From: a virus | Reading direction: 5' to 3' (one strand) | Length of the DNA: 64,000 bases | Virus record (IMG/VR): IMGVR_UViG_3300023223_000669 | Coordinates: 1-64,000 of that record | Shown: one piece after another, positions 13,045-32,629 of the stretch | Layout of the letters: each line of letters starts with the position of its first letter | Position numbering within the stretch: the stretch's first letter is position 1 | Notes under the pieces: model-generated | Database searches by the model: none | The model's input: only the letters and a program-made list of their open reading frames with translations | Told to the model about the DNA's origin: nothing | Translations under genes and position numbers: made by a program

Positions 13045-13121
13045 TGGTTGGAGCGGTGAGACTTGCACTCACTGTCATTAAGATATAAGCTTAACGGCTC
13101 TACTATTTTGCCTTCGCTCCG
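13045..13121 (-). tRNA. tRNA-Ile(UAU)
   Basis: Anticodon arm TTAAG-CTTATAT-CTTAA, T arm GTGAG-TGCAAGT-CTCAC, CCA encoded. Position 1-72 is C-A, then six acceptor pairs. The 5' part overlaps the stop of the gene at 13103. Confidence 0.78.
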
Positions 13122-13564: not shown

Positions 13565-13572
13565 TTTTAAGC

Positions 13573-13779
13573 TTATTTTTCGAGTAAAGATTTGTTTTCT
13601 ACTATAATTCCAGGTTGAACATCTGGCTCACTGAAATGTGGATATCTGATATCTCCCAAGGGAATATCCATACATTCGCAACCATGACGGAATGCTTCCT
13701 CGCCTTTCCCGTTACATAGCCAAGCAACAAAGTTATCGTAAAGCTGTTCTGTATCAAATCTGATGGTAAGTTCTTTCAT
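13573..13779 (-). CDS. hypothetical protein
   Basis: 68 residues, no recognised domain. Overlaps the HNH gene upstream by 4 nt (ATGA-type). Operon member. Confidence 0.62.
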   Translation of the reverse strand: MKELTIRFDTEQLYDNFVAWLCNGKGEEAFRHGCECMDIPLGDIRYPHFSEPDVQPGIIVENKSLLEK

Positions 13780-14114: not shown

Positions 14115-14187
14115 TAATCGATGCTCATCTTTGGTTTTTGTTTTACTGACTCTAATCCTCTTATACGTCGCGTAAAATCTAGTTATA

Positions 14188-14258
14188 TCAGGCCACTCAG
14201 AGTTGAACTGAGGCCGAATGCTTCCAAAGCACCCATGCTACCGTAACACCTTGGCCTG
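14188..14258 (-). tRNA. tRNA-Pro(UGG), no encoded CCA
   Basis: Acceptor CAGGCCA/TGGCCTG, anticodon loop TTTGGAA, T loop TTCAACT, discriminator A followed by TAT, so CCA must be added by a CCA enzyme. Confidence 0.87.
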
Positions 14259-14260
14259 TT

Positions 14261-14349
14261 TGGCTCCAGGGGGAGGAATCGGACCTCCGGTGGGGTTTCC
14301 CCCGCTTGACTAACAGTCAAGTGGCTTTTCCAACGTCGCCTACCCTGGA
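14261..14349 (-). tRNA. tRNA-Asn(GUU) with long variable arm
   Basis: Acceptor TCCAGGG/CCCTGGA, anticodon arm CTTGA-CTGTTAG-TCAAG, class II variable arm (GGGG-AAA-CCCC), T loop TCCGATT, G73, CCA encoded. G73 and GUU are AsnRS identity elements. A long variable arm is abnormal for Asn. Confidence 0.85.
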
Positions 14350-14712
14350 TCATTGTTCTCTATACTCTTTCAACTCTTGCATCGTCATGTCTTTGATTTC
14401 AAGGTAATGCCAATGCCATACTGTCATACGTTCCATTGTTTCTTCAAAAGATGGACCGCTGATGATTGCAATAAATTTACCACCGCTCGCTAACGGTAAC
14501 CCACCATCCTCTAGTTGTATTACATGGCAGCGTCCCATCGCGAGGTTTTCTTCTTTGGTTTTTCCAAGGACCCACCAGTCACGCTCCGTATAGTGATACC
14601 TGTATTTGATGCCATGAAGTTCTACGACATCATCGATTTCAAGATGTGTCGTAGGTCTCCAAGGGTCCTCATAGTCTTGCCAGTCAGAAATGTCTTTGAA
14701 GTAATCATTCAT
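14350..14712 (-). CDS. hypothetical protein
   Basis: 120 residues; DDVVELHGIKYRYHY and a WHWHYLEIKDMTMQELKEY C-terminus. No known family. Start is 9 nt after the CCA of tRNA-His with no clear Shine-Dalgarno; the stop abuts tRNA-Asn. Confidence 0.7.
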   Translation of the reverse strand: MNDYFKDISDWQDYEDPWRPTTHLEIDDVVELHGIKYRYHYTERDWWVLGKTKEENLAMGRCHVIQLEDGGLPLASGGKFIAIISGPSFEETMERMTVWHWHYLEIKDMTMQELKEYREQ

Positions 14713-14721
14713 GGTATTGTT

Positions 14722-14797
14722 TGGTCAGGAGCCGAGGCATCGAACCTCAATCTTGGGAGTCACAGTCCCGTATTTTAGCCATTTAAACTAGCCCCTG
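14722..14797 (-). tRNA. tRNA-His(GUG), alphaproteobacterial-like end
   Basis: Acceptor CAGGGGC/GCTCCTG, anticodon loop CTGTGAC, T loop TTCGATG, A73 and CCA. No G-1 is encoded (the preceding base is A), unlike most bacterial tRNA-His. Confidence 0.88.
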
Positions 14798-14798
14798 T

Positions 14799-14875
14799 TG
14801 GTTGCGGGACTGAGATTCGAACTCAGGCTCTCCGGTTTCAGAGACCGGCGTATTAGGCCGCTATACTATCCCGCT
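14799..14875 (-). tRNA. tRNA-Gln(CUG)
   Basis: Anticodon arm CCGGT-CTCTGAA-ACCGG, T loop TTCGAAT, CCA encoded; 1-72 is A-A, unpaired as in the other Gln tRNA. Confidence 0.9.
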
Positions 14876-15035
14876 AGTTAAAGCTGTCGTGTTTGACTAC
14901 AACTTTCTTCTTTTTGTAGTCTACTCTGATCGTAGTATGACGATCTGGAAATTGATCAGTGATATCCCACCACTCTCCAAACATGAGAACGTGAGTAAAA
15001 CCCATGCTCGACCAACGCATTAATTGTTTATCCAT
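14874..15035 (-). CDS. small hypothetical protein
   Basis: 53 residues, MDKQLMRWSS..., with EWWDITDQFPD and a basic VDYKKKKVVVKHD end. Strong Shine-Dalgarno (AGGAGA) inside the end of the upstream MESH1-like gene. The stop lies at the first bases of tRNA-Gln. Confidence 0.7.
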   Translation of the reverse strand: MDKQLMRWSSMGFTHVLMFGEWWDITDQFPDRHTTIRVDYKKKKVVVKHDSFN

Positions 15036-15036
15036 A

Positions 15037-15561
15037 CTATCTCCTGTACCCCGCTTTGATCACACGATCAAGGTCTTTGTTATTATACCATTCGCCTGTC
15101 AAAAGGTAGTGACGACCTCTTGTATACTTCGCGGCCAGCCGTACTTGCTTCTCCACGGGCAGATACGCTAAGCGATCTGGCCGTGAGTTATCTGCCATGT
15201 CTGCAAGCTTAACAGTAATAGCGACAAGAGAATGGTCGTCTCGAATGCGATCTAGATACTGTCGATATGTTTCCTTATGCTTACGCTTCGTGAGTGCGTC
15301 CACGATATCGGCAAGAAAAGGATCGAATCGTACTCGAATATCCTCAAGGGTAATATCGGTATCTTCTACAACATCGTGCAGGAGGGCAGCGATTTGCGTA
15401 TAGCTTTCTTTGTGGGCAACGGAACCCTCAATTGTCATATCTTTGACGGTTTCTGCCACACGAATCGGATGCATAATATAGGGAAAACCAGCTTTATCAA
15501 ACTGGCCGTCGTGTGCCTCTACTGCAAATCGTAGGGCCTTACTGAGTCTTTCTTTTTTCAT
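15037..15561 (-). CDS. MESH1/SpoT-like HD hydrolase
   Basis: 174 residues, the single-domain HD family that hydrolyses (p)ppGpp (MESH1) or related nucleotides. Seen: LRFAVEAHDGQFDKAGFPYI, MHPIRVAETV, ALLHDVVEDTDIT (HDxxED motif), and VAITVKLADMADN with the distal Asp. No synthetase or regulatory domain. The start overlaps the previous stop (ATGA); a longer frame upstream is not used. Could switch off stringent response during infection (inference). Confidence 0.87.
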   Translation of the reverse strand: MKKERLSKALRFAVEAHDGQFDKAGFPYIMHPIRVAETVKDMTIEGSVAHKESYTQIAALLHDVVEDTDITLEDIRVRFDPFLADIVDALTKRKHKETYRQYLDRIRDDHSLVAITVKLADMADNSRPDRLAYLPVEKQVRLAAKYTRGRHYLLTGEWYNNKDLDRVIKAGYRR

Positions 15562-15806
15562 TGTACGTTCGGGTGATTTCTTAGTCGTTGTGGACACGGA
15601 GGGCATTGCTCACCATTATATTCCGTAGGTAGACCACCATCTGCTGGATACGTACTAACAAGTACTCCATCGACAATTACTCCAAGACGTTCTGCCTGTG
15701 AAATCGCATCATCCCATGTACGACCTGATAGATAGCCTCCGAATCTGCGACCATCACTAATTTTACGTATATAAGTAAATGTAAACATTGATTTTTTATT
15801 TGACAT
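15558..15806 (-). CDS. hypothetical protein
   Basis: 82 residues; FTYIRKISDGRRFGGYLSGR then a CPPCPQR tail. Overlaps both neighbours (11 nt upstream; ATGA downstream). Unknown. Confidence 0.65.
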   Translation of the reverse strand: MSNKKSMFTFTYIRKISDGRRFGGYLSGRTWDDAISQAERLGVIVDGVLVSTYPADGGLPTEYNGEQCPPCPQRLRNHPNVQ

Positions 15807-16074
15807 AACTTTCTAGAAATCCAATGAGCTTTTTAGCTTCCTCTCTTGAAAGAATGAAACAATCAAAATGTCCAAAACGTGACCTGCGGCCAAAGATATA
15901 TTGGACAGCACGAATTATACGTTGCCACCATGTACGATTCCACGAGAGCGACACATAAAAATATACTTCGTCAGACCATATGTCGTCTTCGTCCGGTGGA
16001 TCATAAGCCCACTGGAGCGTGTGATCGGGACTTTGACATATACAAATTGAAAAATGTTTTTTACTGTCTTCCAT
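15796..16074 (-). CDS. hypothetical protein
   Basis: 92 residues starting MEDSKKHF, 7 nt after tRNA-Val. The frame continues upstream into the tRNA and that part is excluded. WNRTWWQRIIRAVQYIFGRR forms a basic amphipathic helix. Unknown role. Confidence 0.65.
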   Translation of the reverse strand: MEDSKKHFSICICQSPDHTLQWAYDPPDEDDIWSDEVYFYVSLSWNRTWWQRIIRAVQYIFGRRSRFGHFDCFILSREEAKKLIGFLESYVK

Positions 16075-16081
16075 GTTAGTT

Positions 16082-16155
16082 TGGTGGGCAATGAGTGAAT
16101 CGAACACTCGCCTTTGGTATGTAACACCAACATTCTACCGTTAAACTAATCGCCC
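16082..16155 (-). tRNA. tRNA-Val(UAC)
   Basis: Acceptor GGGCGAT/ATTGCCC, anticodon loop GTTACAT, T arm GAGTG-TTCGATT-CACTC, A73, CCA encoded. Confidence 0.92.
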
Positions 16156-16422
16156 TTATAAGACCTCGTGTTCTTCTAAAAGCCATACCTCGTCTTGAAC
16201 CCAATAGTCCCCATTATCAAACAGGATCTCAAGAGACCATCGGCATGGTCCCATTTCTTGCAAACGCACTTCCCAGAGACCCCTTTCCGTTTGTTCCTCT
16301 AAATCTTCTTGTATATCAGTTTCCACAAAAGCTACAGCAGCTTCACGATCAGCAAAGACTTTCTTGATCTGCGGAGAACAATCAGGATCGTCCCAGCCGC
16401 GTCTGACGATATATACTTTCAT
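16156..16422 (-). CDS. hypothetical protein
   Basis: 88 residues: short basic N-terminus (MKVYIVRRGWDD) then an acidic, Trp-rich body. Ends at the base before tRNA-Val. Unknown. Confidence 0.65.
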   Translation of the reverse strand: MKVYIVRRGWDDPDCSPQIKKVFADREAAVAFVETDIQEDLEEQTERGLWEVRLQEMGPCRWSLEILFDNGDYWVQDEVWLLEEHEVL

Positions 16423-16423
16423 T

Positions 16424-16615
16424 TTAAGAGATCAAGTTATAATCAAAGTCTGGTGCAACTTCGAGAAACTCATTCTTAACGTATTCCGCCAGAACACCAT
16501 AACCACATTTGCGACAAAAAAGCATGTTTAAAGCACCATGTAATTCCATCACAGATATATCATGAGGCCGAGTAGGCGATAAACCAGATCCGTCACAAAC
16601 AATTTTCTTCATCAC
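16424..16615 (-). CDS. small zinc-ribbon-like protein
   Basis: 63 residues: VCDGSGLSPTRP at the start and FCRKCGYGV at 34-42 give a likely zinc ribbon, a pattern common in small phage proteins. Unknown role. Confidence 0.68.
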   Translation of the reverse strand: MMKKIVCDGSGLSPTRPHDISVMELHGALNMLFCRKCGYGVLAEYVKNEFLEVAPDFDYNLIS

Positions 16616-16620
16616 TTATG

Positions 16621-16629
16621 TAGTGTATT
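16621..16629 (+). promoter_or_regulatory. TAGTGTATT motif, probable late promoter
   Basis: 129 nt upstream of the HNH gene at 16758; the RNA would cross tRNA-Thr in antisense. Confidence 0.5.
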
Positions 16630-16658
16630 ATTGAATCAGAGCGAAAACACTTCTATTT

Positions 16659-16733
16659 TGGAGCCGGTTGGAGGAATCGAACCCCCACATCTAATTTACA
16701 AAACTAGACCTCTGCCACTAAGGTTAAACCGGC
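16659..16733 (-). tRNA. tRNA-Thr(UGU)
   Basis: Acceptor GCCGGTT/AACCGGC, anticodon loop TTTGTAA, T loop TTCGATT, CCA encoded. Confidence 0.92.
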
Positions 16734-16757
16734 ATTATATTCTAATGGAGATATCTC

Positions 16758-17318
16758 ATGCTAGACAATTATACCCTAGAAACACTTGTTAGTCAAGGAC
16801 TTTCTCAACACGAAATGGCTGAAAAACTCAATTGCAGTCAGTCTCATGTTTTCCGTAGCTTGCGTCACCACGATCTACAGACTAGGTTTACTGGTCGATC
16901 TTCTATTCGCAATTGTATTCAGTGTGATCAGCCATATAAGGCTCATGGCAATAGGCAGAAATATTGCTCTCATACCTGTCAACATCGCTTCGCATATGAA
17001 CGCTATATTGAAAAGTGGCTATGTGGAGAAAAGGATAGCTTAGTTGCTTACTCTATTTCAAATCACATTCGACGCTGGTTGATCGAGCGACGTGGCGAGC
17101 AATGCTGGGAGTGCGGCTGGAATGAAAAACACCCAATTGGGGGCAATGTTCCTTTGGAAGCTGATCATATTGACGGCAATCACAGGAACAATATGCCAGA
17201 AAATCTACGCTTACTTTGTCCTAATTGTCATTCGTTAACCCCTACATACAAAGCTCGTAATAAGGGCAACGGTCGTCACGCAAGACGCGAACGATATCGA
17301 GCAGGTAAAAGTTATTAA
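16758..17318 (+). CDS. HNH endonuclease with HTH
   Basis: 186 residues. HTH at 11-35 (SQGLSQHEMAEKLNCSQSHV), a zinc finger (CIQC...CSHTC), then HNH: CWECGWNEKHP, LEADHIDGNHRNN, LLCPNCHSLTPTY. Shine-Dalgarno GGAGA. Plus-strand island in a minus operon, convergent with the gene at 17315. Confidence 0.88.
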   Translation: MLDNYTLETLVSQGLSQHEMAEKLNCSQSHVFRSLRHHDLQTRFTGRSSIRNCIQCDQPYKAHGNRQKYCSHTCQHRFAYERYIEKWLCGEKDSLVAYSISNHIRRWLIERRGEQCWECGWNEKHPIGGNVPLEADHIDGNHRNNMPENLRLLCPNCHSLTPTYKARNKGNGRHARRERYRAGKSY

Positions 17319-17488
17319 CTGGCGTGTTTTTCTAAGGCATCCACCTGGGATGCGGCCCGCATGGCTACTACATCCTGCATGTCTAATCCTTCTTTTTCTG
17401 CTGCTTCTCGCACTTCTGCCATATAGTGAGCATTTGCACGAATACCAGCAGCAACAATAGTCATTAGTAGCAATCTATTTTCATTCAT
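17315..17488 (-). CDS. small hypothetical protein
   Basis: 57 residues (MNENRLLLMTIVAAG...), likely all-helical; overlaps the end of the HNH gene by 4 nt. Unknown. Confidence 0.6.
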   Translation of the reverse strand: MNENRLLLMTIVAAGIRANAHYMAEVREAAEKEGLDMQDVVAMRAASQVDALEKHAS

Positions 17489-17512
17489 CTGTTTAACATC
17501 TCTTTTGGAATT

Positions 17513-17665
17513 TTATAAGGAGTACGACTCTTTGCTTCTCTCGTCTAACCAAGCTCTGTACGGCACATAACACTCCTCGCACATATCACCGAAGGCTGTT
17601 CTTCTGGCAAGCGGCACAGGAGCCTTGATAGATTTCTTACAACCAATACACGTTTTATCTTTCAC
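17513..17665 (-). CDS. four-cysteine zinc-binding peptide
   Basis: 50 residues from GTG: CIGCKK...MCEECY gives two C-x2-C knuckles 25 residues apart, a likely zinc ribbon. Starts 2 nt after the HAD gene stop. Confidence 0.65.
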   Translation of the reverse strand: MKDKTCIGCKKSIKAPVPLARRTAFGDMCEECYVPYRAWLDERSKESYSL

Positions 17666-17667
17666 GA

Positions 17668-18246
17668 TTATCTTAAAAAGGACTCTTCTAATCGTTTGTG
17701 TACCTCGTCGTATCCGTCTTCGATACTGACTAGGTTTGTGTGTAATTCTGATGAGTAGTTGACTACTCCCAATCCTCGTGGTCTATTTTTCAGCCACAAT
17801 TCCATGAAGGGCCAGTAGTCGTCTACGAAAACTCTACCATAGGCAATACGCTTGTCGTCCGTGATATGTAATGTGGCGAAGGGCATGTTTTCACGCACCC
17901 AATCCACCTTTTCCATCCAGGCCCGCGATCCAGTCGTCGGACCTTTCGTCAATACATGGATATCATACCCGATGGACCGGCATATGTCAAGCACTTTCCA
18001 GCCCCATTCTAGGCGAGGAAGATTCCGCCAGAAACCAGGCTCTTTCTTGATGGCTTGAGCACGCTCATACCAGTAATCAGGCATTTGCCAGAGATCCTGC
18101 GGGAATTCTTCTTCTGGCGATTTCATTGCTTTCAAGCGTTCCCGCAGAGGTCCTTGAAAGTTGACAAGGGTTTCATCCATGTCAAACAGGGCGATCTTAT
18201 CAGGATTGAGAGCTTTTGGATTTACGTAGCCTGGGGGTAGACTCAT
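17668..18246 (-). CDS. HAD-family phosphatase (5'-nucleotidase-like)
   Basis: 192 residues. HAD motif I FDMDETLVNF with the nucleophile Asp, motif II HVLTKG, and FVDDYWPFM as motif IV; the cap between I and II is typical of 5'(3')-deoxyribonucleotidases, also found in other phages. The start is the ATG overlapping the stop of the upstream peptide (ATGA) and preceded by AAGGA; a longer frame to 18363 is out of phase with that peptide and rejected. Confidence 0.85.
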   Translation of the reverse strand: MSLPPGYVNPKALNPDKIALFDMDETLVNFQGPLRERLKAMKSPEEEFPQDLWQMPDYWYERAQAIKKEPGFWRNLPRLEWGWKVLDICRSIGYDIHVLTKGPTTGSRAWMEKVDWVRENMPFATLHITDDKRIAYGRVFVDDYWPFMELWLKNRPRGLGVVNYSSELHTNLVSIEDGYDEVHKRLEESFLR

Positions 18247-18419
18247 GCAGTTTTCCTTTGGACATTGTATAGACGATGCCCGCCCGCTCTGTTTTGATTG
18301 ATCGTGCGGCAATACCTGTAGGCGGCACTCTTGCTGGTGAACTCGGCGTTGCCGACCATCCAAGTGTTTGTCATTGTTGTTTTATAGACTTCTTGTTTTT
18401 TCTTTCTAGTTTTGACCAT
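18243..18419 (-). CDS. small basic protein
   Basis: 58 residues: Lys/Arg-rich N-terminus (MVKTRKKKQ), then FTSKSAAYRYCRTIN, a pattern seen in small phage proteins. AAAGG 8 nt before the ATG; ATGA coupling to the HAD gene. 30 nt after tRNA-Glu. Confidence 0.68.
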   Translation of the reverse strand: MVKTRKKKQEVYKTTMTNTWMVGNAEFTSKSAAYRYCRTINQNRAGGHRLYNVQRKTA

Positions 18420-18449
18420 GATATTGCCTTTGTTTGCGGTAAATTGAAT

Positions 18450-18524
18450 TGGTCACCCCAGACAGTTTCGATCTGTCTTCTCCACGTTGAAAGCGTAGTA
18501 TCCTAGCCAGTAGACGATGGGGCG
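18450..18524 (-). tRNA. tRNA-Glu(UUC)
   Basis: Acceptor CGCCCCA/TGGGGTG, anticodon arm CTACG-CTTTCAA-CGTGG, T arm GACAG/CTGTC, A73, CCA encoded. Confidence 0.87.
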
Positions 18525-18799
18525 AAGCGGCGTTGAGGATTCCAACCTCTACAGTCCCGAAGACGTTAAGGATTCTAACCTTTACAGCCCTGTATGAGAC
18601 TCCAGGTGATTCTCCTAACCTGACCTCGCCTCGCCAAAGAGACAAGTGGCGAGACGAGGCGTAGGTCGGGAGGTCTGCCCGGAGTGATCTAAGAAGGCTG
18701 GGCTACAGTGTGATCAATGCTTGTACCGATCAGCCAATATTGATCGCTTTAAAGACGTGCTAAATACACATTGCACATATAGTTGATCGCCTTCTTGTT
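18525..18799 (-). ncRNA. gene-free structured stretch
   Basis: No convincing ORF. Two tandem units of about 33 nt carry T-arm-like hairpins (GAGG-TTGGAAT-CCTC and AAGG-TTAGAAT-CCTT on the minus strand). A long imperfect hairpin with core CTCGCCA/TGGCGAG and flanking GACCT/AGGTC lies at about 18626-18686. Candidate structured RNA or decayed tRNA remains. Confidence 0.4.
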
Positions 18800-18875
18800 T
18801 GGTGGACCGGGGCGGTTACGATCCGCCGATCCCTGATTGCAAGTCAGGAGTTTTACCGATTAGAACTACCAGCCC
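18800..18875 (-). tRNA. tRNA-Ala(UGC)
   Basis: Acceptor GGGCTGG/CCGGTCC with the G3-U70 pair that defines tRNA-Ala, anticodon arm CCTGA-CTTGCAA-TCAGG, A73, CCA encoded. Confidence 0.92.
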
Positions 18876-18935
18876 ATTCGCCTCGCTCACAAGGCGTTGT
18901 TTCAAGTGGCCTTTTATACTCATACCCAGGAGTAG

Positions 18936-19019
18936 CTCGAAACTGACCCGCCGAGATCGACCCCCACAACTCACGCCCAGCATTACCTGATAGTGGGGAT
19001 CTCGACCTCTGGTTTCGAG
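18936..19019 (-). ncRNA. long inverted repeat, candidate structured RNA
   Basis: Arms CTCGAAAC and GTTTCGAG close an 84-nt element with an inner stem (GAGATC/GATCTC plus CCCAC/GTGGG). No ORF in 18876-19129. A hairpin CGCCTTG-TGAG-CGAGGCG lies just after tRNA-Ala. Confidence 0.4.
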
Positions 19020-19090
19020 TGAATTATTGGGCTGTTCTCCTATATACTATAGAATGCCTTGCCAGGAGTCTAGAGATTTGAGCACAGCCC

Positions 19091-19120
19091 ACCCCCCAGG
19101 GAGACCGGGGGGTCTGTTTT
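19091..19120 (+). terminator. hairpin, terminator-like
   Basis: ACCCCCC/GGGGGGT with a 9-nt loop, then CTGTTTTG. Lies just before the late motif at 19130, where it could block read-through from upstream. Confidence 0.5.
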
Positions 19121-19129
19121 GTAACCGCT

Positions 19130-19138
19130 TAGTGTATT
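19130..19138 (+). promoter_or_regulatory. TAGTGTATT motif, probable late promoter
   Basis: Followed by TTGGAGG and the HNH ATG at 19161. Confidence 0.65.
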
Positions 19139-19160
19139 TCTATTTGGAGGCAAATCAAAT

Positions 19161-19664
19161 ATGTTACAACCAAGCGAAAGATCTTGTGAAACTTGTGGTG
19201 ATACTTTTATACCTCACTACAAAAATATAAACAAACCCAAAAAAGGGCGTTTCTGTTCTATTAGCTGTTCTAGTAAACGACAACGCTATTGGACTAAGAT
19301 CCCCAATGTGATTTGTTCTTATTGTGATAAACCATTTTATAAATGTAAATCCAAACAATTAACATCTAGGTCGGGTCACTATTTTTGTTGCCGTCAACAT
19401 CGAGATTTAGCATTGCGTGTGGGCACCGCAAAAACTATTGAAGCTATACAGCCGTTAAGATATCGTGGACAAGAATGTGTAGCATATGATTATCGCATTG
19501 TAGCACTTCGTCACTATAAACCTATTTGTCATAGATGTGATTTTAAACAAAAACCAGAAATACTAATCGTCCATCACAAGGATAGAGATAGGTCTAATAA
19601 TTTGTTAGACAATCTTGAAATACTCTGTCCCAATTGTCATGCTACAGAACACTATGGGGAGTGA
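19161..19664 (+). CDS. HNH endonuclease
   Basis: 167 residues, four zinc knuckles (CETCGDTF, CSISC, CSYCDKPF, CCRQH), then HNH: CHRCDFKQ, LIVHHKDRDRSNN, ILCPNCHATEH. GGAGG ribosome site. Lies inside the tRNA island, a typical spot for mobile endonucleases. Confidence 0.88.
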   Translation: MLQPSERSCETCGDTFIPHYKNINKPKKGRFCSISCSSKRQRYWTKIPNVICSYCDKPFYKCKSKQLTSRSGHYFCCRQHRDLALRVGTAKTIEAIQPLRYRGQECVAYDYRIVALRHYKPICHRCDFKQKPEILIVHHKDRDRSNNLLDNLEILCPNCHATEHYGE

Positions 19665-19665
19665 T

Positions 19666-19741
19666 TGGAGCATCGCCCGGATCCTGCCACCGGAACTACA
19701 GCTTGGAAGGCTGTCGTGTTACTTTTAAACACCAGCGATGC
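19666..19741 (-). tRNA. tRNA-Gly(UCC)
   Basis: Acceptor GCATCGC/GCGATGC, D stem GTGT/ACAC, anticodon arm ACAGC-CTTCCAA-GCTGT, CCA encoded. T loop GGCAGGA is atypical. Confidence 0.88.
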
Positions 19742-19792
19742 GTAAAAATGATTTTCTGGAAAAACTCTACAAGTATCCAGATATATGCTTAG

Positions 19793-19914
19793 TGGTCGTT
19801 TCGGCACGAATTGAACGTGCTCCTCCCACTGTTCGGGCGGGCGTGCTCGGTCCCGATTGGAGAGACCCGACTGACAATACCAATCATGATCAGTCGCCAT
19901 TACACCACAAAACG
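19793..19914 (-). tRNA. oversized tRNA-like element, perhaps Trp(CCA)
   Basis: 122 nt. Acceptor CGTTTTG/CGAAACG, T arm GCACG-TTCAATT-CGTGC, A73 and CCA are all intact. Between them lie three hairpins instead of two: GACTGA/TCAGTC with a GG-containing loop, GGTC/GACC enclosing CTCCAAT (Trp-like loop), and a GC-rich third arm. No Trp tRNA is otherwise present. Could be a real but aberrant tRNA or a mimic. Confidence 0.45.
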
Positions 19915-20496
19915 TATTTACGATCCACGACTAACGCCTAACCATGCCTGCGTCCGATCGCTCTATCATGTAGGGTTATTGCATATGACAGCATAAAACA
20001 CCACGGGCCGCATGTCTGCGACAGGAGCACCCTCCTGGACGACACGGGACTCGCACCCGCTTTGGCTTCTAGATCATCACTAATCCGTGGTTGTACAACG
20101 TTATCGCTGATGTCTTTCTTCGTCCCTTATCCATGTCCGGCATGGATTGGCACACATGGTAGTTCTGGTGCCGGGATCGGTACTTGATCATCGCAGACCT
20201 ACCTGTCCGCTGCGATAACGTATTTTGAAAGCTAGTACGAAACACAATCGCATCCTGTTAAGGTCCTATTACTAAGGGTTATTGATTATGTCTCTGGCAA
20301 ACTCGCGTAGCTAACGCAAGGACCTGTTTCCTGTCCACCACTAGCTTATTCTGTTCGCTCCGCTCACGGAGCGTTGTGCGTGCTGGGAATAGGTGCCCTT
20401 CACCCAGCTATACCTCCCACCTACTGCTCGGAATGAGCAGCGTTGGCTTTATATCATGAAATTACTAAGCGTCCCTAGCGTTTTCATGCTACTCTA
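19915..20496 (-). ncRNA. gene-free structured stretch in the tRNA island
   Basis: About 580 nt without a convincing ORF. Minus-strand hairpins: CTGCTC/GAGCAG, CGCTCCG-TGAG-CGGAGCG, ATCGCAG/CTGCGAT around 20 nt, and a T-arm-like GCGGG-TGCGAGT-CCCGT near 20040 whose flanks partly pair as an acceptor but lack CCA. Candidate large ncRNA of the GOLLD/ROOL kind, or eroded tRNAs. Confidence 0.4.
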
Positions 20497-20571
20497 TGGT
20501 GGACCGAATGGGGTTCTCGCCCATATCTCCGCTTGGAAAATCCGGTGTTTTGTAGTTTAAACTACCAGCCC
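20497..20571 (-). tRNA. tRNA, anticodon probably UUC but irregular
   Basis: Acceptor GGGCTGG/TCGGTCC, D stem GTTT/AAAC, T arm ATGGG-CGAGAAC-CCCAT, CCA encoded. The anticodon stem has only three pairs (CCG/CGG); standard spacing reads UUC. It has the same acceptor as tRNA-Ala including G3-U70, so charging is uncertain. Confidence 0.6.
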
Positions 20572-20574
20572 GTT

Positions 20575-20943
20575 CTAGTTTACTCGATACTCTTGGTAGC
20601 CATTACCAACAGTAATCGTTTTCTTGTTCTGAATTTCGCGGGCAGGCATCAGGTAGTTGATCCCGCCAGCATGAATGAATAACATTTCGACTGTAGTATT
20701 GTCGAAGGGTTGAACGTCTGTGCCCTGTGTACCTCCCTTGGTGCAGAGGCCCACTTCATACGATCCAGGGCGACGTGCGAACAGCGTCGTCTTGACGGAC
20801 ACTCTGGCGAGTACTCCATCGTTATCCACGATTAGGTCATAAGGTTGGCTATCGTTAAGAGGAATTGATACTCTCATCCCATTTCTAGTGAAATAGGCAA
20901 TCGCCTCACCTAGACCAATATTACCAATTGTTTTAGTTTTCAT
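20575..20943 (-). CDS. PD-(D/E)XK-type nuclease-like protein
   Basis: 122 residues: KTIGNIGLGEAIAYFTRNG, then YDLIVDNDGVLARVSVKTTLF, which fits the E...D...VxVK pattern of small endonuclease-fold (DUF4365/PDDEXK_11-like) proteins. The acidic-to-Lys spacing is right but the family call is by eye. Flanked by tRNAs on both sides. Confidence 0.65.
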   Translation of the reverse strand: MKTKTIGNIGLGEAIAYFTRNGMRVSIPLNDSQPYDLIVDNDGVLARVSVKTTLFARRPGSYEVGLCTKGGTQGTDVQPFDNTTVEMLFIHAGGINYLMPAREIQNKKTITVGNGYQEYRVN

Positions 20944-20946
20944 ATC

Positions 20947-21034
20947 TGGTGCCGCATCTGAGAATCGAACTCAGCGAGGGCCTGAGCCCACCAGATTTAC
21001 AGCCTGGTCCGTCTCCATAACGGTATACTACGAC
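20947..21034 (-). tRNA. tRNA-Tyr(GUA)
   Basis: Anticodon arm CCAGG-CTGTAAA-TCTGG, long variable arm (GGGC/GCCC) as expected for bacterial Tyr, D stem CCGT/ACGG, T loop TTCGATT, CCA. Acceptor GTCGTAG/ATGCGGC has two G-U pairs and a G-A at the base. Confidence 0.87.
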
Positions 21035-22032: not shown

Positions 22033-22374
22033 ATGCAATGTACTTATCATTTATGCAACAACATACTTACTGGAAAACAGACTAAATACTGTTCTCTTAG
22101 CTGTAAAAACAAAGCTGGTGTCAGGAAATTTCGTAGGAACCTCAAGAGACGAGCGGTCGTCTACAAAGGTGGCAAGTGTCTTCGCTGCGGATATAATCGC
22201 TATGTTGAAGCGTTGGAGTTTCATCATAGAGATCCTGACGAAAAAGACTTTACCATTTCTAAATACATGAGAAGCTGTGGAAAGTCTACTTCATGGGATA
22301 CCATTGCGTTAGAACTGGACAAATGTGATATGTTGTGTTCTAATTGCCACAAAGGAATGCATGCTGTCGCATAG
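22033..22374 (+). CDS. HNH endonuclease
   Basis: 113 residues: knuckle CTYHLCN/CSLSCKNK, then KGGKCLRCGYN, ALEFHHRDPDEKDFTI, LDKCDMLCSNCHKGMH. Same subfamily as 1990, 26120 and 32048, shorter N-terminus. Confidence 0.87.
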   Translation: MQCTYHLCNNILTGKQTKYCSLSCKNKAGVRKFRRNLKRRAVVYKGGKCLRCGYNRYVEALEFHHRDPDEKDFTISKYMRSCGKSTSWDTIALELDKCDMLCSNCHKGMHAVA

Positions 22375-26119: not shown

Positions 26120-26680
26120 ATGAACATTAAGTATTCAAAATGTAAGAAACCTAATATCTGCAAGTGGTGTCGAGCTGAGTATCCTAATTATGCCACTATT
26201 GATGGTAAACGTGTACGGTTAGCTGGGCGACGTTATTGTTTAACGTGTTCTCCATATACTGGTAAACGCAATAACCCAAGACCATACACACGTAAAAATA
26301 AAACAATAGATGGGATAGAACACAAGTGGTGCCCATATCAAAAACATTGGGCACCTTATAATAATTTTGGATTATTCGAAAGAAATGATAGACAAGAATA
26401 TCAAAGTTACTGTCGCGACTGCCAGCGATCTAGAGCATCGCAATTGCAATCAGACTTTAAAAGAAAAATCGTAGAATACTTTGGCAATAGATGTTGCGAC
26501 TGTGATGGTGTTTTTTATGATTGTGTTTATGATTGTCACCACATAGATCCCAGCAAAAAAAGCTTTAAGTTATCTTCGCCTAAAGCTCTTCGTTTGTCGT
26601 GGCGGAAAGTTAAAGAAGAACTTGATAAATGCGTACTTCTTTGTGCTAATTGCCATCGCATTAGACATCATCATGTGTGA
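26120..26680 (+). CDS. HNH endonuclease
   Basis: 186 residues; N-terminal zinc module shared with the gene at 32048 (KCKKPNICKWC...YCLTCSPY), second knuckle WCPYQ/YCRDCQ, HNH core CCDCDGVFYD, YDCHHIDPSKK, LDKCVLLCANCHRIRHH. GGAGG ribosome site. Convergent with the minus operon. Confidence 0.88.
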   Translation: MNIKYSKCKKPNICKWCRAEYPNYATIDGKRVRLAGRRYCLTCSPYTGKRNNPRPYTRKNKTIDGIEHKWCPYQKHWAPYNNFGLFERNDRQEYQSYCRDCQRSRASQLQSDFKRKIVEYFGNRCCDCDGVFYDCVYDCHHIDPSKKSFKLSSPKALRLSWRKVKEELDKCVLLCANCHRIRHHHV

Positions 26681-26681: not shown

Positions 26682-26954
26682 TCAGGGTTTCAAGAATTCT
26701 TCTTTGTTGATTGACATTACGACTTTTCTATAAACACCTAATCCTTGTGGAGCAATATTCAAATACGCTAGAAAATGCCCTTTGCATAGAAAGTCAACAT
26801 GCGGACAACTACCACTTTTATCTAATAATTGCCATTTGCTATTGTCTAAGTTGACGGTAAATACTTGCAATATTTGATCATTGTGTACCCAGGCAATTTT
26901 ATTGCCTGGGTACACATTATAAATCAATGGGCTGTTATCTAGAAGCATGTTCAT
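26682..26954 (-). CDS. hypothetical protein
   Basis: 90 residues, beta-rich, no known family. Overlaps the NMNAT fusion stop by 4 nt, so it is the third gene of the NAD-salvage operon. Confidence 0.65.
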   Translation of the reverse strand: MNMLLDNSPLIYNVYPGNKIAWVHNDQILQVFTVNLDNSKWQLLDKSGSCPHVDFLCKGHFLAYLNIAPQGLGVYRKVVMSINKEEFLKP

Positions 26955-28531
26955 TTGATACGATATAGCACATCAGTCCCACGCACTAGTTTTCTGTTTA
27001 CACTGGTACTCTTTATAAAGATATCCCAGTTACCAAAGTTACCTGGCTTGACTCTCACCCTGGCACTCGTCGGCATACCGATAAGGGCTCGGGCTTCATG
27101 TCCACCGTAGATAGCTCCCGAGGACTTATCCCTAACGACAAGATCCTTAGCGGGTTGCACGTCTTCGGGCTTAGTCAATTGATAGTAGGCAAGGCCGACG
27201 CCGTATACACCACCGGCCTGACGACCGAAGGTTTTATTGCGTGACATACGGTCTTCTACGAAATCACGGATCTGCCACTCGACACCACCAGCAGCAGCGT
27301 TGTCAACCTTGAGAGCCCTGAAAGTAGAAGAGACATCGTTCATGTTACGAATATCCGAGTCCGCGACTCGTTCACCATATAGCCGGTGAGTTACAATGTA
27401 CTTAGCGATTGAGTTTGTTAGGAAAGAATGCTCGCCTGGAAATATAGCCTCGCGAACAGCCGTCGAGTTATGATTTTCGAATCTCTCTGGATCTAACACT
27501 CTAAAGTTTAGATGTGCAGAAACAGGAGTCTCAGTTATGACTTCGTTATCCCTAGGCATGATGTAAAAACCAGCATGGGTTAGTTCCTTGCCAAGCCACT
27601 TGTGGCTCGGGTACTGGTGAGCCGCGATGGTCGCGTTCCATGCATCGGCCCCTACCAAGAAACTCCAATGGTAATCATCGCTAGGCACATAACTTCTAAT
27701 GAGCTTATGTTTTTGCCAAAATATGGGTGCTTGCGTAATCAACGTAGGCTTACCCTCCAGGTCCAACATGCGTACCCGGTGGAGTAGGTCTTCGATATCC
27801 ATACTGCCCTTATAGCAATGCCCTTGAGAAATCTCGAAAAGTTCACCAGCCTCAATATGCTTACGAGTCGGTGGGTTGAACGCACCAGGATAGATGACTT
27901 CGTACCGACGTAGGTAGTCTGTGACCCTATGGAATAGTCCTTTATGGTATACTAGAGCAGTATCCTCACTCAGCAAGAGTAGACGCTCGAAATCACTAAT
28001 ACCAGGAGCATATAGTACGTCAATGCGTGCAAAGTTGAGGTCCGCATTGACCCGGCTAAGTTTCGAGGCCCAGGATTCAGTACTCAATAGACAACCATCG
28101 AGGAACCACTGAGCGAGACATGCGACCCGATCGCCTAGCCTAGTCCTATTGAAACGAACGCCACTAAGGGCAAAATGCATATATGCTTCCCATTCATCAG
28201 TCACAAGATACATCCATCCATGTGACTTACGATCACGATAATGGGCTCCGGTAATTGCAAAACCAAACCGGCTCTGCGGCGGTTCGTATTCCGATAGGTT
28301 CTCTTTGGCTCTAATGTGATTACATTTGGCCAAAAAACCAGCATTATCGAGAGACACACCCCTCATGCCATGCGGCCTATCCAGGCCAGCATAATCGCAG
28401 TTAACGCCAATTACAGTTTGAGATGCACCCGGCACCCGGAGGAATCTGGAGCTAAACTCCAGTCCCATGCCAGCCTCAGAGATCACGCCCTGCCAGGACG
28501 AAGAGTTAAGTCTATTAGCAAAGTCTTGCAT
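26951..28531 (-). CDS. CinA-like/NMN adenylyltransferase fusion protein
   Basis: 526 residues. Residues about 1-150 resemble the CinA C-terminal (PncC) domain: SSWQGVISEAGMGLEFSSRF, VPGASQTVIGVNCDYA. Residues about 215-385 form a nucleotidyltransferase of the NMNAT class: YPGAFNPPTRKHIEAGELFE (the GxFxPxHxGH-type motif, with one His altered), SFLVGADAW and NSTAVREAIF (ISSTxxR-type). The C-terminal 140 residues are unassigned (TFRALKVDNAAAGGVEWQIR; GGHEARALIG). With the NAMPT next door it would make NAD from nicotinamide. PncC normally deamidates NMN, so the first domain may be catalytically changed. Confidence 0.83.
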   Translation of the reverse strand: MQDFANRLNSSSWQGVISEAGMGLEFSSRFLRVPGASQTVIGVNCDYAGLDRPHGMRGVSLDNAGFLAKCNHIRAKENLSEYEPPQSRFGFAITGAHYRDRKSHGWMYLVTDEWEAYMHFALSGVRFNRTRLGDRVACLAQWFLDGCLLSTESWASKLSRVNADLNFARIDVLYAPGISDFERLLLLSEDTALVYHKGLFHRVTDYLRRYEVIYPGAFNPPTRKHIEAGELFEISQGHCYKGSMDIEDLLHRVRMLDLEGKPTLITQAPIFWQKHKLIRSYVPSDDYHWSFLVGADAWNATIAAHQYPSHKWLGKELTHAGFYIMPRDNEVITETPVSAHLNFRVLDPERFENHNSTAVREAIFPGEHSFLTNSIAKYIVTHRLYGERVADSDIRNMNDVSSTFRALKVDNAAAGGVEWQIRDFVEDRMSRNKTFGRQAGGVYGVGLAYYQLTKPEDVQPAKDLVVRDKSSGAIYGGHEARALIGMPTSARVRVKPGNFGNWDIFIKSTSVNRKLVRGTDVLYRIK

Positions 28532-30111
28532 TACGACACCGTGATAAGATCCTTGAGAGCATAGTGCGGGCCGGTCGAATTCAGATCAGACAAAGCACGC
28601 ACATTGTCCAGGGTTTCATGGTACATGATTTCGCCATTAAAGAACTTAGTAGTAAGGAAGTTCTGGAAGACGCTGCCTTCGCCAGTACGACCTTGCAGCA
28701 GCCTCAGTTGTTTCTCTGTACCAGTAATGATCTCACCAGGCACGCTACGGAACACGGCGAGACGACCACGCTTTGAATTCTTGGTCGGATCGGTTGCGGG
28801 TTGCTTGAACACGTCTCGCCACTCACCGCCACTTTTCATAGCAGAACACTTGATGGCGAAGCGTTGCGTGTCGCGGGTGAAGTCCTGTAGAAGTCCACCG
28901 CCAGAGCCAAAGGCAATGTTATCCGCAGAAATACCTTCGTCTTTGAAGGCCCGCAAGATAACGCCAACGGTATGGTCAGGAATACGAATGAGATTATCTT
29001 TAATCTCTAGGGCACGTTCAAATTCCTGAGCACGGATAGCAGCCTCTAATTCTTCGTTGTGTGGATTCATACTATCCAGCCACTTGATGCCGTCACCCTG
29101 GATCATACGGACATAATCGGGTAGCACACGGAACCCCTTAGCGTTTTCTTCGCTGCCGAATACACTCTCGATAGCATGGAATACGTCAATATCAATGTCC
29201 GGAATGTCGCCAGAGTCGGGACGGATCACAACCGTTCCTTCACGTTCTCTAATCATTTTAAGAATATCAGGGTTCCCACCGATCACGTCCGTCACGAACC
29301 GGAACATATCGTAGGAGTCGCCTACCATTGCGACGAGGCCAGTCGGGTGTGCTTGCAGGACGCGACGTACGATGTTGGCCTCGCCAGTCGGACCTTCGGC
29401 CGTCATGACAGAGTGCTCGGTTGCAGGGATAGAGAAGCCCGCCATGTCTGCACTATAGTATTGACGCAGGAGAGCGATAGCAGCCATGTTATCTGTACCC
29501 AACGCTCCCGTAGCCAGGTGAGCAGCACCAGCTAGGGCAGCGGTTTCAAGCGAAGACACGCCACGGAAACCAAAGTCATGAAGCTTGAAGGGAAGGCCAG
29601 CCATGTCACCAGTGAGATCCAGGTACTTAGCAATGATCTGTCTCACGGCACGGCTACCAGTGGCAACCGTAGTCGGAGACCAAATCTGCGAAAGCATGGT
29701 CTCTAGGTAGTTCGTCAGGAACGCTGTACGCTCACCACCAGTGTTTTCAATGGTGAATAGTGCAGTAGACTCGGGCACCACCATGCCCTCGGGTAAAGCA
29801 GCAATACGAACAGGAAGATGACCCTGATGCTCGTTGAGAATGTACTCCCAACCAGCACGATTAAATATGTCTGCTCGTCCAAAATGGGCCTCACAGACAG
29901 CAGCGGCTTCGTCGATTTTATCTTGTGTCACGACATGGCCAGTGAAATATCTTGCAAGAATATATTGGAGGCCAAAAAAGCAAGTTTCAGGAAATCTTGC
30001 ACCGATCCTGGGTTCACAATAGCTATAAACAGCTTCGGTTCCCTCTGGATAAAACTTATGATGACTATGTTTATACGAATCTGAGCCAAAAGCAACGATA
30101 TTGAAATTCAT
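28531..30111 (-). CDS. nadV: nicotinamide phosphoribosyltransferase
   Basis: 526 residues, NAMPT/NadV family of type II phosphoribosyltransferases. FGSDSYKHSHHKFYPEGTE at the start, EPRIGARF, a central KLHDFGFRGVSSLETAALAG, VVIRPDSGD (PRPP site), and FGSGGGLLQDF. Makes NMN from nicotinamide and PRPP. Shares one base with the next gene (TAATG), so translation is coupled to the NMNAT fusion. Nampt plus NMNAT is the phage NARP2-type NAD-rebuilding pair. Confidence 0.94.
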   Translation of the reverse strand: MNFNIVAFGSDSYKHSHHKFYPEGTEAVYSYCEPRIGARFPETCFFGLQYILARYFTGHVVTQDKIDEAAAVCEAHFGRADIFNRAGWEYILNEHQGHLPVRIAALPEGMVVPESTALFTIENTGGERTAFLTNYLETMLSQIWSPTTVATGSRAVRQIIAKYLDLTGDMAGLPFKLHDFGFRGVSSLETAALAGAAHLATGALGTDNMAAIALLRQYYSADMAGFSIPATEHSVMTAEGPTGEANIVRRVLQAHPTGLVAMVGDSYDMFRFVTDVIGGNPDILKMIREREGTVVIRPDSGDIPDIDIDVFHAIESVFGSEENAKGFRVLPDYVRMIQGDGIKWLDSMNPHNEELEAAIRAQEFERALEIKDNLIRIPDHTVGVILRAFKDEGISADNIAFGSGGGLLQDFTRDTQRFAIKCSAMKSGGEWRDVFKQPATDPTKNSKRGRLAVFRSVPGEIITGTEKQLRLLQGRTGEGSVFQNFLTTKFFNGEIMYHETLDNVRALSDLNSTGPHYALKDLITVS

Positions 30112-30689
30112 AATTGTAATATAGCGTGAATGTAATTGATCGTTATAAGTTGATCTTGATTGTAAAAATCTTCTGGAAAACGATCGCCCTTGATTGTGTT
30201 ACACATCTTACATAATAAGGTCGCATTGTTGAGATTTAAACCAAATCCTTTTGCGAGTGGGTAGTGATGATCGATCTGTAATTCTATTTTAGAACTACAG
30301 TTGAAGCATTGATTACAAAATATACGCCGTGTTGTTTCGATAAGATATTGGGTTACTTGAGCATCTAAGTTACGCTGACGTTCTCTTCTGTTGTGTGCAT
30401 AAATTTGATTGGCGGCTTTACCTTTTTGGCTTTTCTTATAAAACCTGCGTGATGCTTTTCTTTTTTCTGAACGTCTATATCGTTTTTGTGCTTTGAGACA
30501 TGCTTTTTTGCCATTTTCGGTGCGAATATAGTTTTGTCTTGTTAATTTCCCTGTGCTAGTGTTTTGATATCTTTTTTGGTTATGCCGTACACAGTCTTTG
30601 TACCACGGTCTTAGGCCATCACGTTTTTGAATATCTTTGTAATAATCATTTTCGTGTTGCCAAAGTTTGCACTTGGTACATTGTTTCAT
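30108..30689 (-). CDS. HNH endonuclease
   Basis: 193 residues: MKQCTKCKLWQ, a long Lys/Arg/Gln-rich middle with repeats (RRSEKRKASRRFYKKSQKGK), then HNH CNQCFNCSSKIELQIDHHYP and LLCKMCNTIKGDR. Inserted between the Nudix and NAMPT genes with overlaps at both ends, so it rides in the operon. Confidence 0.86.
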   Translation of the reverse strand: MKQCTKCKLWQHENDYYKDIQKRDGLRPWYKDCVRHNQKRYQNTSTGKLTRQNYIRTENGKKACLKAQKRYRRSEKRKASRRFYKKSQKGKAANQIYAHNRRERQRNLDAQVTQYLIETTRRIFCNQCFNCSSKIELQIDHHYPLAKGFGLNLNNATLLCKMCNTIKGDRFPEDFYNQDQLITINYIHAILQL

Positions 30690-31321
30690 TATTCCCTTGT
30701 TGGTCTTTTTCCAGTACGATTGAAAATAAGGTAGTCGGTGATGATTTCTTGATGATCAAAACAGAGTGAGTCGATCATTGTGGCTCCAAGCTGTTTGGGG
30801 TCTACGATGCGTGCTTCTTTTGCATCATCAGCGGCTTCGGGATACCCTATTGCTTTAGCAATGTAGACGATACTGATAGCATGAAAACGACTGTCACGAC
30901 CAGGATTGGGGTAGGTATGAAATTGCTCTAGTTGCGTTATATGCAGACCAGTTTCCTCGGTAGCCTCACGGGCCGCAGCATCAATAGCACGTTCCCCAAT
31001 GTCTACGAAGCCGCCGGGGAGAGCCCAGCCTAGCGGTTCATTCACTCTGGAGATAAGTACAATACCATCTTTTCGGAGCATAGGCGTAGACGTACCATCT
31101 AGTCTGAGTTGTCCGAAAGGATAGAGATGCCAGTCTTGCATTTCGATGATGATATCGACTGTAACTTTCGGTGTTGTGTGGTGCCAATGCTTAGGTGCTT
31201 GATGGTGGCAATCGGGGTGAGTCTCGTCACAATAATCCTTATCTATCCCTGTAGCGGGACAAATATGCCAATCGTCCAATATATCAAGCCAATGAATATT
31301 CATTAGAAATTCACTTTTCAT
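30689..31321 (-). CDS. Nudix hydrolase
   Basis: 210 residues. N-terminal 60 residues with a Cys/His cluster (CPATGIDKDYCDETHPDCHHQ), then a Nudix box GGFVDIGERAIDAAAREATEETGLHI (GX5EX7REUXEEXGU). Similar to ADP-ribose or NADH pyrophosphatases of the NadM-Nudix type. Same operon as NAMPT and NMNAT; it could hydrolyse ADP-ribose or damaged dinucleotides. Start couples to the receiver-gene stop (ATGA). Confidence 0.9.
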   Translation of the reverse strand: MKSEFLMNIHWLDILDDWHICPATGIDKDYCDETHPDCHHQAPKHWHHTTPKVTVDIIIEMQDWHLYPFGQLRLDGTSTPMLRKDGIVLISRVNEPLGWALPGGFVDIGERAIDAAAREATEETGLHITQLEQFHTYPNPGRDSRFHAISIVYIAKAIGYPEAADDAKEARIVDPKQLGATMIDSLCFDHQEIITDYLIFNRTGKRPTRE

Positions 31322-31947
31322 GATAGAAAATTCGGGTCGTCTAGATATGTGTCAACCAGCTTGGTGAATGGAATACGATGATTCTCAAAGCCCGCGTACG
31401 TAAGCTTGTGCTCCATGTTTTCAGCAGCAGGGGTGTTTATCGAGTGGACAATAACCACGGGAGAATCGGTATAGTCGTCCTTCACCATCCACCGGACTAC
31501 TTCGCTGCCGGTGTTCGGGTCGGAAATGTCGCAGTTTTGTCCATAGAACATCGGGGGCTCGCCCCCAAGATCATGGTCGAGAAAGACTACATCGAATTTG
31601 TCTTTGGCCAAAGCTTTGATCGCGGCGTCAGCCGTGTCTACCCAATATATACTATGCTTAGGAGTCAGCTTTGCAACGAAGATCTCCATGCGTCTCGGAT
31701 CATCCTCTAGGATCAGTATGTTAAGCATTCTATCACGATCGTCATTAAAAGTGCAGCCGGTAATGGGATTGAATTGCGGGTTGTATTCCTCCATGTCCAG
31801 AAGTGCTTTGATTTTCGTTAAAGCTAGAATCTGTCCCGCATGATTGTCCCGCGTGGGTTCGTGTATTTTGCGACGATCCAAGACTACAGACTCAGCCCTT
31901 GCAAGCTCAAGCTCTATCCAGGAACGTAAAGTATTCAGGATCTCCAA
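31318..31947 (-). CDS. cREC-type receiver-like protein
   Basis: 209 residues. Residues about 75-190 match the receiver fold called cyclic-phosphate processing receiver (cREC): ILILEDDPRRMEIF, DVVFLDHDLGG, VVIVHSINTPAAENM. Such domains accompany RNA-repair and nucleotide-processing genes in phages and bacteria. TTG start 6 nt after the -10. First gene of the Nudix-HNH-NAMPT-NMNAT operon, so it may act in the same pathway. Confidence 0.8.
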   Translation of the reverse strand: MEILNTLRSWIELELARAESVVLDRRKIHEPTRDNHAGQILALTKIKALLDMEEYNPQFNPITGCTFNDDRDRMLNILILEDDPRRMEIFVAKLTPKHSIYWVDTADAAIKALAKDKFDVVFLDHDLGGEPPMFYGQNCDISDPNTGSEVVRWMVKDDYTDSPVVIVHSINTPAAENMEHKLTYAGFENHRIPFTKLVDTYLDDPNFLS

Positions 31948-31953: not shown

Positions 31954-31981
31954 ATTATACCACCGATTCAGGGTTTGTCAA
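31954..31981 (-). promoter_or_regulatory. sigma70-like promoter of the NAD operon
   Basis: TTGACA-N16-TATAAT; TTG start 6 nt after the -10. Confidence 0.85.
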
Positions 31982-32047: not shown

Positions 32048-32629
32048 ATGAAGATTGAGCTACTCAAATGCAAGAACCCAAATATCTGCAAACACTGTGG
32101 GTCGGAATTTCCTAACTGGATTCTAGTCGATGGCGTCAGAAAGAATCTCTCGACTAGAAGCTATTGTCTAGGCTGTAAGCCTTACAGTAGTGGCAACACT
32201 AAAAGACTCTCACGATACCGCGAAATCAATGGTCACGAACAGAAACTTTGTTCTGTTTGTCAAAAATGGAAAGATGTAGAATATGCATGGTATAAAGTCA
32301 CGAGGGGTGACAAAGTATATACCAACTCACATTGTAAGGATTGCACTAATGCTCGCTCTCGGTGTCTTGCTGCTGATCTTAAGAGAAAAGCCGTCAATTA
32401 CAAAGGCGAAAAATGTTATGATTGTGGTGAGTTGTTTCCTGATTACATTTACGACTTTCATCATCGTGACCCGTCTGCTAAAGACTTCAAAGTATCAAAT
32501 CACCTAACACGAAACATGGACTGGCAAAAAGTAAAAGATGAACTGGATAAATGCGATATGCTTTGTTCCAACTGCCATAGGCACCGCCATTACGATAAGG
32601 ATAATCCTAACTACTGTCCGACTCGCTAG
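32048..32629 (+). CDS. HNH endonuclease
   Basis: 193 residues; the N-terminal NPNICKHCGSEFPN...YCLGCKPY module and HNH core (CYDCGELFPDYIYDFHHRDP; LDKCDMLCSNCHRHRH) make it the nearest relative of the 26120 gene. The frame is open far upstream, but the ATG behind GGAGG is the clear start. Confidence 0.88.
   Translation: MKIELLKCKNPNICKHCGSEFPNWILVDGVRKNLSTRSYCLGCKPYSSGNTKRLSRYREINGHEQKLCSVCQKWKDVEYAWYKVTRGDKVYTNSHCKDCTNARSRCLAADLKRKAVNYKGEKCYDCGELFPDYIYDFHHRDPSAKDFKVSNHLTRNMDWQKVKDELDKCDMLCSNCHRHRHYDKDNPNYCPTR

Follow-up and report, generated by a model that had tools for sequence, protein, structure and literature searches.

The window analyzed here, positions 1-64,000 of the IMG/VR virus record IMGVR_UViG_3300023223_000669 (183,100 bases for the whole virus record), contains an operon of six open reading frames (ORFs) on its minus strand, running from position 31947 to 26682, with overlaps of 1-4 bases between successive frames (Table 1). 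In order, they encode a cyclic-phosphate receiver (cREC), a Nudix hydrolase, an HNH endonuclease, a nicotinamide phosphoribosyltransferase (NAMPT), a 526-residue fusion protein and a 90-residue orphan. The operon had been outlined in a preliminary description of this DNA, and all six ORFs are found as described there, with NAMPT, Nudix, cREC and HNH matched by Pfam, PHROG or NCBIfam. The fusion joins a CinA-like domain to a nicotinamide mononucleotide (NMN) adenylyltransferase (NMNAT) domain, and the operon likely encodes, with a probability of about 0.7, a route by which the phage rebuilds NAD in the manner of NARP2, with an unorthodox NMNAT.

Table 1. Features of the NAD operon and its borders in the 64,000-base window.
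Feature	Position	Strand	Evidence or remark
HNH gene, left flank of operon	26120..26680	+	44% identical to right-flank HNH
90-residue orphan, last operon gene	26682..26954	-	no family match
CinA-like / NMNAT / vWA-tail fusion, 526 residues	26951..28531	-	family profile, model, Foldseek
Fusion residues 387-526, C-terminal tail of phage vWA proteins	26954..27373	-	phrog_26613, E 3.5e-23
Fusion residues 211-386, NMNAT domain (GAFNPPTRKH, GAD, NSTAVR, C-terminal LT..IAKYI...LY)	27374..27901	-	TIGR00482, Foldseek
Fusion residues 1-165, CinA/PncC-like domain without Ser/Lys dyad	28037..28531	-	hhalign, Foldseek 4ct8
NAMPT	28531..30111	-	phrog_448, E 3e-132; NF006629 above cut-off
HNH endonuclease inside operon	30108..30689	-	PF01844, E 3.5e-6; phrog_1035 endonuclease VII
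Nudix hydrolase, ADP-ribose-pyrophosphatase-like	30689..31321	-	PF00293, E 2.7e-17, 63.5 bits
cREC, start codon uncertain	31318..31947	-	PF20274, E 1.9e-16
Promoter-like site TTGACA-16-TATAAT, TG before -10 (extended -10), ahead of operon	31954..31981	-	12/12 sigma-70 match
HNH gene, right flank of operon (TTG-start ORF listed from 31844)	32048..32629	+	paralogue of 26120-26680

Domains of the 526-residue fusion

Queried directly against Pfam, PHROG, PDB and by tblastn, the fusion sequence returns no CinA match and a weak NMNAT one, neither part being matched in Pfam. NCBIfam analysis reports a weak hit of residues 286-385 with the NMNAT model TIGR00482 (E 8e-4), which reaches the last position of the model. 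A 182-kb IMG/VR virus record (L001) encodes a 385-residue protein that is 44% identical to the fusion, and hhalign comparison of these two phage sequences alone with CinA yields a probability of 5-12. Relatives were sought with a bait of similar layout, the putative plant protein AT2G01220, which was used only to find real DNA and is named in no paper searched. One relative is encoded by a 485-kb phage found with this bait, and 128 bacterial loci encode others, of which the best 80, nearly all full length, were kept as the cellular loci (L091-L170). When 81 family proteins were combined into a profile, it matched the window fusion at E 4.6e-15 and the L001 relative at E 1.5e-18 (E-values for a search space of 1000 sequences); the matches span both domains, in the same order, and cover the greater part of the length that the two proteins share. 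The N-terminal half of the cellular family matches PncC/CinA by hhalign with a probability of 95.9 and a score of 60.2, the best of 60 column-shuffled versions scoring 21.6. The CinA match therefore becomes significant only through this intermediate family, single members of which match the Pfam CinA model just below cut-off. An AlphaFold2 model of the fusion computed with 49 sequences has a predicted local distance difference test (pLDDT) score of 82.8 and a predicted template-modelling (pTM) score of 0.76; a two-sequence run, with a pLDDT of 40, was not used. Foldseek analysis of the CinA-like part returns CinA crystal structures (4ct8, E 2.7e-4, probability 1.00), while the NMNAT part hits 5llt, 6buv and 1nus (P. 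falciparum, M. tuberculosis NadD and human cytosolic NMNAT; probability 0.99-1.00). No adenylyltransferase family other than those of NMN or nicotinic acid mononucleotide (NaMN) appears among the top 30 hits. The predicted viral structures of BFVD include a 360-residue homologue from an uncultured Caudovirales (E 1.8e-13). The joining of CinA/PncC-like and NMNAT-like domains, proposed in the preliminary description, is thus confirmed by the cellular-family profile and by structure prediction with Foldseek.

The NMNAT superfamily motifs GxFNPx(T/H)xxH, GxD and STxxR are present in the window as GAFNPPTRKH, GAD and NSTAVR, the first of these (FNPPTRKH in the window, FNPPTAKH in L001) being near the GSFNPPTFMH of the solved NMNAT 9rpk. 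Residues K241, K274, G294 and D296 are invariant over cells and viruses, and R327 nearly so. Past STxxR, an NMNAT-type segment is found only in the window and L001 (NSTAVREAIFPGEHSFLTNSIAKYIVTHRLYG). Active-site loss in this domain, which would have spoken against NAD synthesis, was not found, apart from an unusual Lys in the TxKH motif. Sequence and model together predict NMN adenylyltransferase activity for the fusion. A PF01467 search of the 183-kb record reports no other adenylyltransferase, a weak negative since the fusion itself escapes that search.

In the CinA protein of A. tumefaciens, S31 and K63 form the catalytic dyad, the S31A and K63A mutations abolish activity, and S48, Y58 and T105 were examined for a part in substrate binding (PMC5384747). 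Their equivalents in the fusion are A20, R52, S37, Y47 and T94, respectively. The fusion resembles the PncC/CinA NMN deamidases by its fold and by the Ser48, Tyr58 and Thr105 positions, but it is devoid of Ser31 and Lys63 equivalents and of the ESxTGG signature. The dyad positions are occupied by Ala and Val in L001. None of the 80 cellular members has the dyad Lys, and their Ser position holds Thr (38), Ala (29) or Ser (13); the S48 position is Ser or Thr in all of them, and Y58 is retained in 77. Inactive CinA homologues occur elsewhere, namely E. coli YdeJ and YfaY (PMC3855486). As the deamidating dyad is absent, the earlier worry that a PncC-like part would destroy NMN falls away. Judging from these residues, the CinA-like domain probably binds NMN without deamidating it and looks like a deamidase relic that retains substrate binding, NMN holding being suggested by the retained contact positions.

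The C-terminal 140 residues, first described as matching nothing, match in fact the tails of vWA (von Willebrand-A) proteins of large phages. Hits to residues 420-523 are the C-terminal tails of 326-367-residue proteins from Caulobacter, Rhizobium, Synechococcus and Mycobacterium phages and from Virus Rctr197k, with 37-53% identity. A vWA-type N-terminus is reported by Pfam, in some cases weakly, for four of the five tail-bearing phage proteins examined. The module is missing from the L001 relative, and no second copy of it exists in the window genome.

Relatives in viruses and bacteria

The CinA-NMNAT pairing is not unique to the window phage and belongs to an existing bacterial and viral family. 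At least six other virus records contain the fusion, three of which have NAMPT beside it or elsewhere in the genome, and at least two more viruses have it split. In L001 the gene order is Nudix, cREC, NAMPT and fusion, and NAMPT followed by CinA-NMNAT recurs in L025, where Nudix, NAMPT and CinA-NMNAT stand in a row. The two halves are overlapping separate genes immediately ahead of NAMPT in L027 (6264-7501), and L186 harbors a split, likewise overlapping CinA-like/nucleotidyltransferase gene pair (7247-8489); this two-gene form is possibly ancestral or reverted. At least five records came from an independent family-pattern scan: L181, with NAMPT in the same 80-kb record, L182, L183, L184 and L186, the last with the split form. 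The window and L001 group in a tree as one long-branch lineage, and four other viruses as another, the placement being uncertain because the branches are long.

The bacterial relatives are chromosomal and come mostly from Chloroflexota, Planctomycetota and Gammaproteobacteria. They share with the fusion two domains in the same order and the loss of the dyad Lys, but they keep H-x-G-H without exception (FNPLHDGH) and GxDTxxR, and they end at SSTxxR, whereas the window and L001 have TxKH, GADAWNA and the additional NMNAT-type C-terminal segment. The branch separating the cellular family from the two phage proteins measures 3.4 changes per column. Since the invariant HDGH is replaced by TRKH in the window, the fusion is a divergent relative of the cellular family, not a close member. 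No curated full-length model of Pfam or NCBIfam matched the L091-L170 family, and no paper on it was found. Clustering of the neighbours at the 80 bacterial loci reveals no NAMPT, Nudix or cREC relative. The commonest neighbour there is an alpha/beta-hydrolase-like ORF, present at 17 loci. Two further proteins were observed during these searches. L185 encodes a stand-alone nucleotidyltransferase of the family without the CinA-like half (7920-8507), followed by a gene resembling bifunctional sugar kinase/nucleotidyltransferases. Near a phage NAMPT, L024 encodes a protein (10575-11708) whose long, HD-looking N-terminal region is followed by an adenylyltransferase motif (VYAGSFNPFHKGHLNIL). The cyanobacterial 'NMNAT-C' was also considered and turned out to be unrelated.

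CinA is not mentioned in two surveys of phage NAD systems (PMC7824862, PMC9503650), while a CinA survey (PMC3855486) noted occasional fusions to other domains and set them aside. No description of a CinA-NMNAT fusion was found in the literature searched, mostly open papers with the original NARP2 report outside the search, and this absence is not proof. To phage NAD rebuilding, an active field of work, the fusion would add a separate phage NMNAT lineage that incorporates an apparently inactivated deamidase and recurs beside NAMPT in several phages. Since the same two-domain protein sits in many bacterial chromosomes, the phage context also yields a cheap and concrete prediction for the function of the bacterial family, which would bind NMN and make NAD.

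NAMPT, Nudix and cREC in a proposed NAD-rebuilding route

The NAMPT of the operon is identical to the human enzyme at all tested catalytic positions (D16, Y18, F193, R196, D219, H247, R311, D313, G353, D354 and G384, human numbering). It shares with the Namat of NARP1 (Adps + Namat) a NAMPT-fold transferase using nicotinamide. However, the aromatic adenine clamp of Namat, F392 and Y396, which defines NARP1 (PMC12774641), is replaced in the window by the non-aromatic Gly and Asp, and a Namat/NARP1 identity is rejected on this ground. Among the six operon genes, to which this comparison was confined, none resembles Adps. Right after its active-site QGDG loop, the window NAMPT carries an insert of ~35 residues (about residues 345-385) resembling the UVR motif (E 0.0017, below cut-off). 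The QGDG-to-AFGSG spacing is thereby 57 residues, as compared with 22 in 46 of 50 relatives; the insert is seen in none of the other 50 NAMPTs, and L001 has a shorter one.

The cREC protein matches PF20274 (cREC_REC) with 60.9 bits, against a cut-off of 27, and its orthologue in L001, 53% identical, adjoins NAMPT. The Nudix box is intact (GGFVDIGERAIDAAAREATEETGL) and fits GX5EX7REUXEEXGU; the best NCBIfam matches of this protein are an ADP-ribose-responsive NrtR-type protein and NMNAT-Nudix proteins, and it too has an orthologue in L001. The receiver, thought at first to be a possible new part, is not one, cREC and Nudix being a described phage pairing (PMC7824862, PMC9503650). In jumbo phages, such adjacent pairs go with sirtuin or RNA-repair genes (PMC9503650), whereas here they stand ahead of NAMPT and NMNAT, and their presence in one operon with NAMPT and such an NMNAT is not described in these two papers. 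Candidate cREC partners in the window are an RNA ligase with a PHA02142 OB fold (3494-4579, minus strand) and an RlaP-type RNA-repair nucleotidyltransferase (54830-55810, minus strand).

In the route that we propose, NAMPT would join the nicotinamide released by NADases to phosphoribosyl pyrophosphate (PRPP), and the NMNAT domain would adenylate the resulting NMN to NAD. The Nudix protein probably cleaves ADP-ribose, the other NADase product, to AMP and ribose-5-phosphate, from which the host can remake PRPP, and cREC is predicted to open cyclic-phosphate derivatives of ADP-ribose ahead of Nudix; both roles follow earlier proposals (PMC7824862, PMC9503650). The CinA-like domain would most likely bind NMN, in a holding, sensing or dimerising role for the NMNAT, while the vWA-tail module, an addition of the window lineage, would probably attach the enzyme to a partner. 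The route may serve against NAD-draining defence, a use that we infer, like the parts assigned here to Nudix, cREC and the tail. It resembles NARP2 (NAMPT + NMNAT, as in the Vibrio phage phi-Grn1/KVP40-like phages) by a NAMPT of phrog_448 with a neighbouring NMNAT and by Nudix activity. However, the phage NMNATs described before are joined to a Nudix or P-loop kinase domain (PMC7824862), whereas the fusion partner here is a CinA-like domain and Nudix has its own gene, beside cREC. The NARP2-like reading of the preliminary description is supported by the intact NAMPT residues, the lack of the Namat clamp and the NMNAT signature motifs, while the fusion that it presented as unexpected is not unique to this phage.

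Several observations weigh against this reading. The HxGH motif is TxKH in both the window and L001, and a Lys in place of the Gly is unusual, although eukaryotic NMNATs also deviate there. The target-normalised TM-scores are modest (0.41-0.66 for single-domain targets), the T105 equivalent is unaligned in L001 in one alignment, and no activity report was found for any member of the CinA-nucleotidyltransferase family. The records of L182, L183/L171, L184 and L186 contain no NAMPT, so that the substrate of the family may differ or be host-fed. Lastly, most viral NAMPT neighbours came from a NAMPT search, and the adjacency of fusion and NAMPT is therefore partly ascertained.

The strongest competitor, clearly less probable than the NARP2-like reading, is that the NAMPT-NMNAT pair generally raises NAD to support phage growth (replication, ligase, RNA repair) and has no particular part in countering defence. 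The window encodes an ATP-dependent DNA ligase (9269-10396) besides the RNA ligase and RlaP-type protein, and cREC has been tied to RNA repair (PMC7824862, PMC9503650). Yet boosting is compatible with counter-defence, and experiments on NARP1 have established that phages rebuild NAD in the face of NADases (PMC12774641). It is unlikely that the adenylyltransferase domain acts on a mononucleotide other than NMN, with a fortuitous NAMPT neighbour. PF01467 spans several activities, the cellular members have no NAMPT, Nudix or cREC nearby, and most of the independently found viral records are devoid of NAMPT; however, the Foldseek adenylyltransferase matches are all NMN/NaMN adenylyltransferases, the fusion adjoins NAMPT in three phages and its split form does so in a fourth, and both the window and L001 have the NMNAT-type C-terminal segment. 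Still less probable is an amidohydrolase activity of the CinA-like domain through other residues, which would give NaMN and then nicotinic acid adenine dinucleotide and require the host NadE. The fold and the substrate-contact positions are retained, Ser persists at the S31 position in the 13 cellular members counted above, and E19, C45, D46, H97 and H104 are common to the window and L001, but K63 is lost family-wide and both phages of this lineage have Ala for S31, the very positions whose replacement by Ala kills the A. tumefaciens enzyme. The last 140 residues belong to another protein family and are missing in L001, as an assembly or annotation artefact joining unrelated genes might produce, but this is rejected as highly improbable because the CinA-NMNAT join recurs in at least seven virus records and 80 bacterial loci, and the ORF, one continuous frame, overlaps a neighbouring gene at each end.

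Within the NARP2-like route, a more specific and rather doubtful idea is that the CinA-like half is a pseudo-deamidase that would grip NMN and hand it to the attached NMNAT, shielding the phage NMN from diversion by the host PncC, the uncharacterised bacterial family doing the same in NAD homeostasis.

Borders of the operon and other features

The promoter-like site ahead of the operon is the sole perfect sigma-70-type match across 26-33.2 kb. It puts the transcription start at ~31947, which makes the TTG start codon of cREC listed at 31947 doubtful, and the true start may be further in. The in-operon HNH gene, missing from the L001 operon, is probably a mobile passenger. For the 90-residue protein, searches of Pfam, PHROGs, NCBIfam and phages returned no convincing relative. 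Both flanking HNH genes stand on the plus strand immediately outside the operon ends, and share 74- and 57-base stretches at ~80% DNA identity. They bracket the NAD operon much as homing endonucleases would enclose a cargo. Related HNH genes are located at 22033-22374 and about 2014-2391, also on the plus strand. Elsewhere in the window, 15 tRNA genes are scattered on the minus strand through 12.6 kb (8453-21031), and within this phage tRNA cluster lies a minus-strand carbamoyltransferase gene (11181-12014; OTCace_N, E 3.7e-42), which is unusual in a phage.

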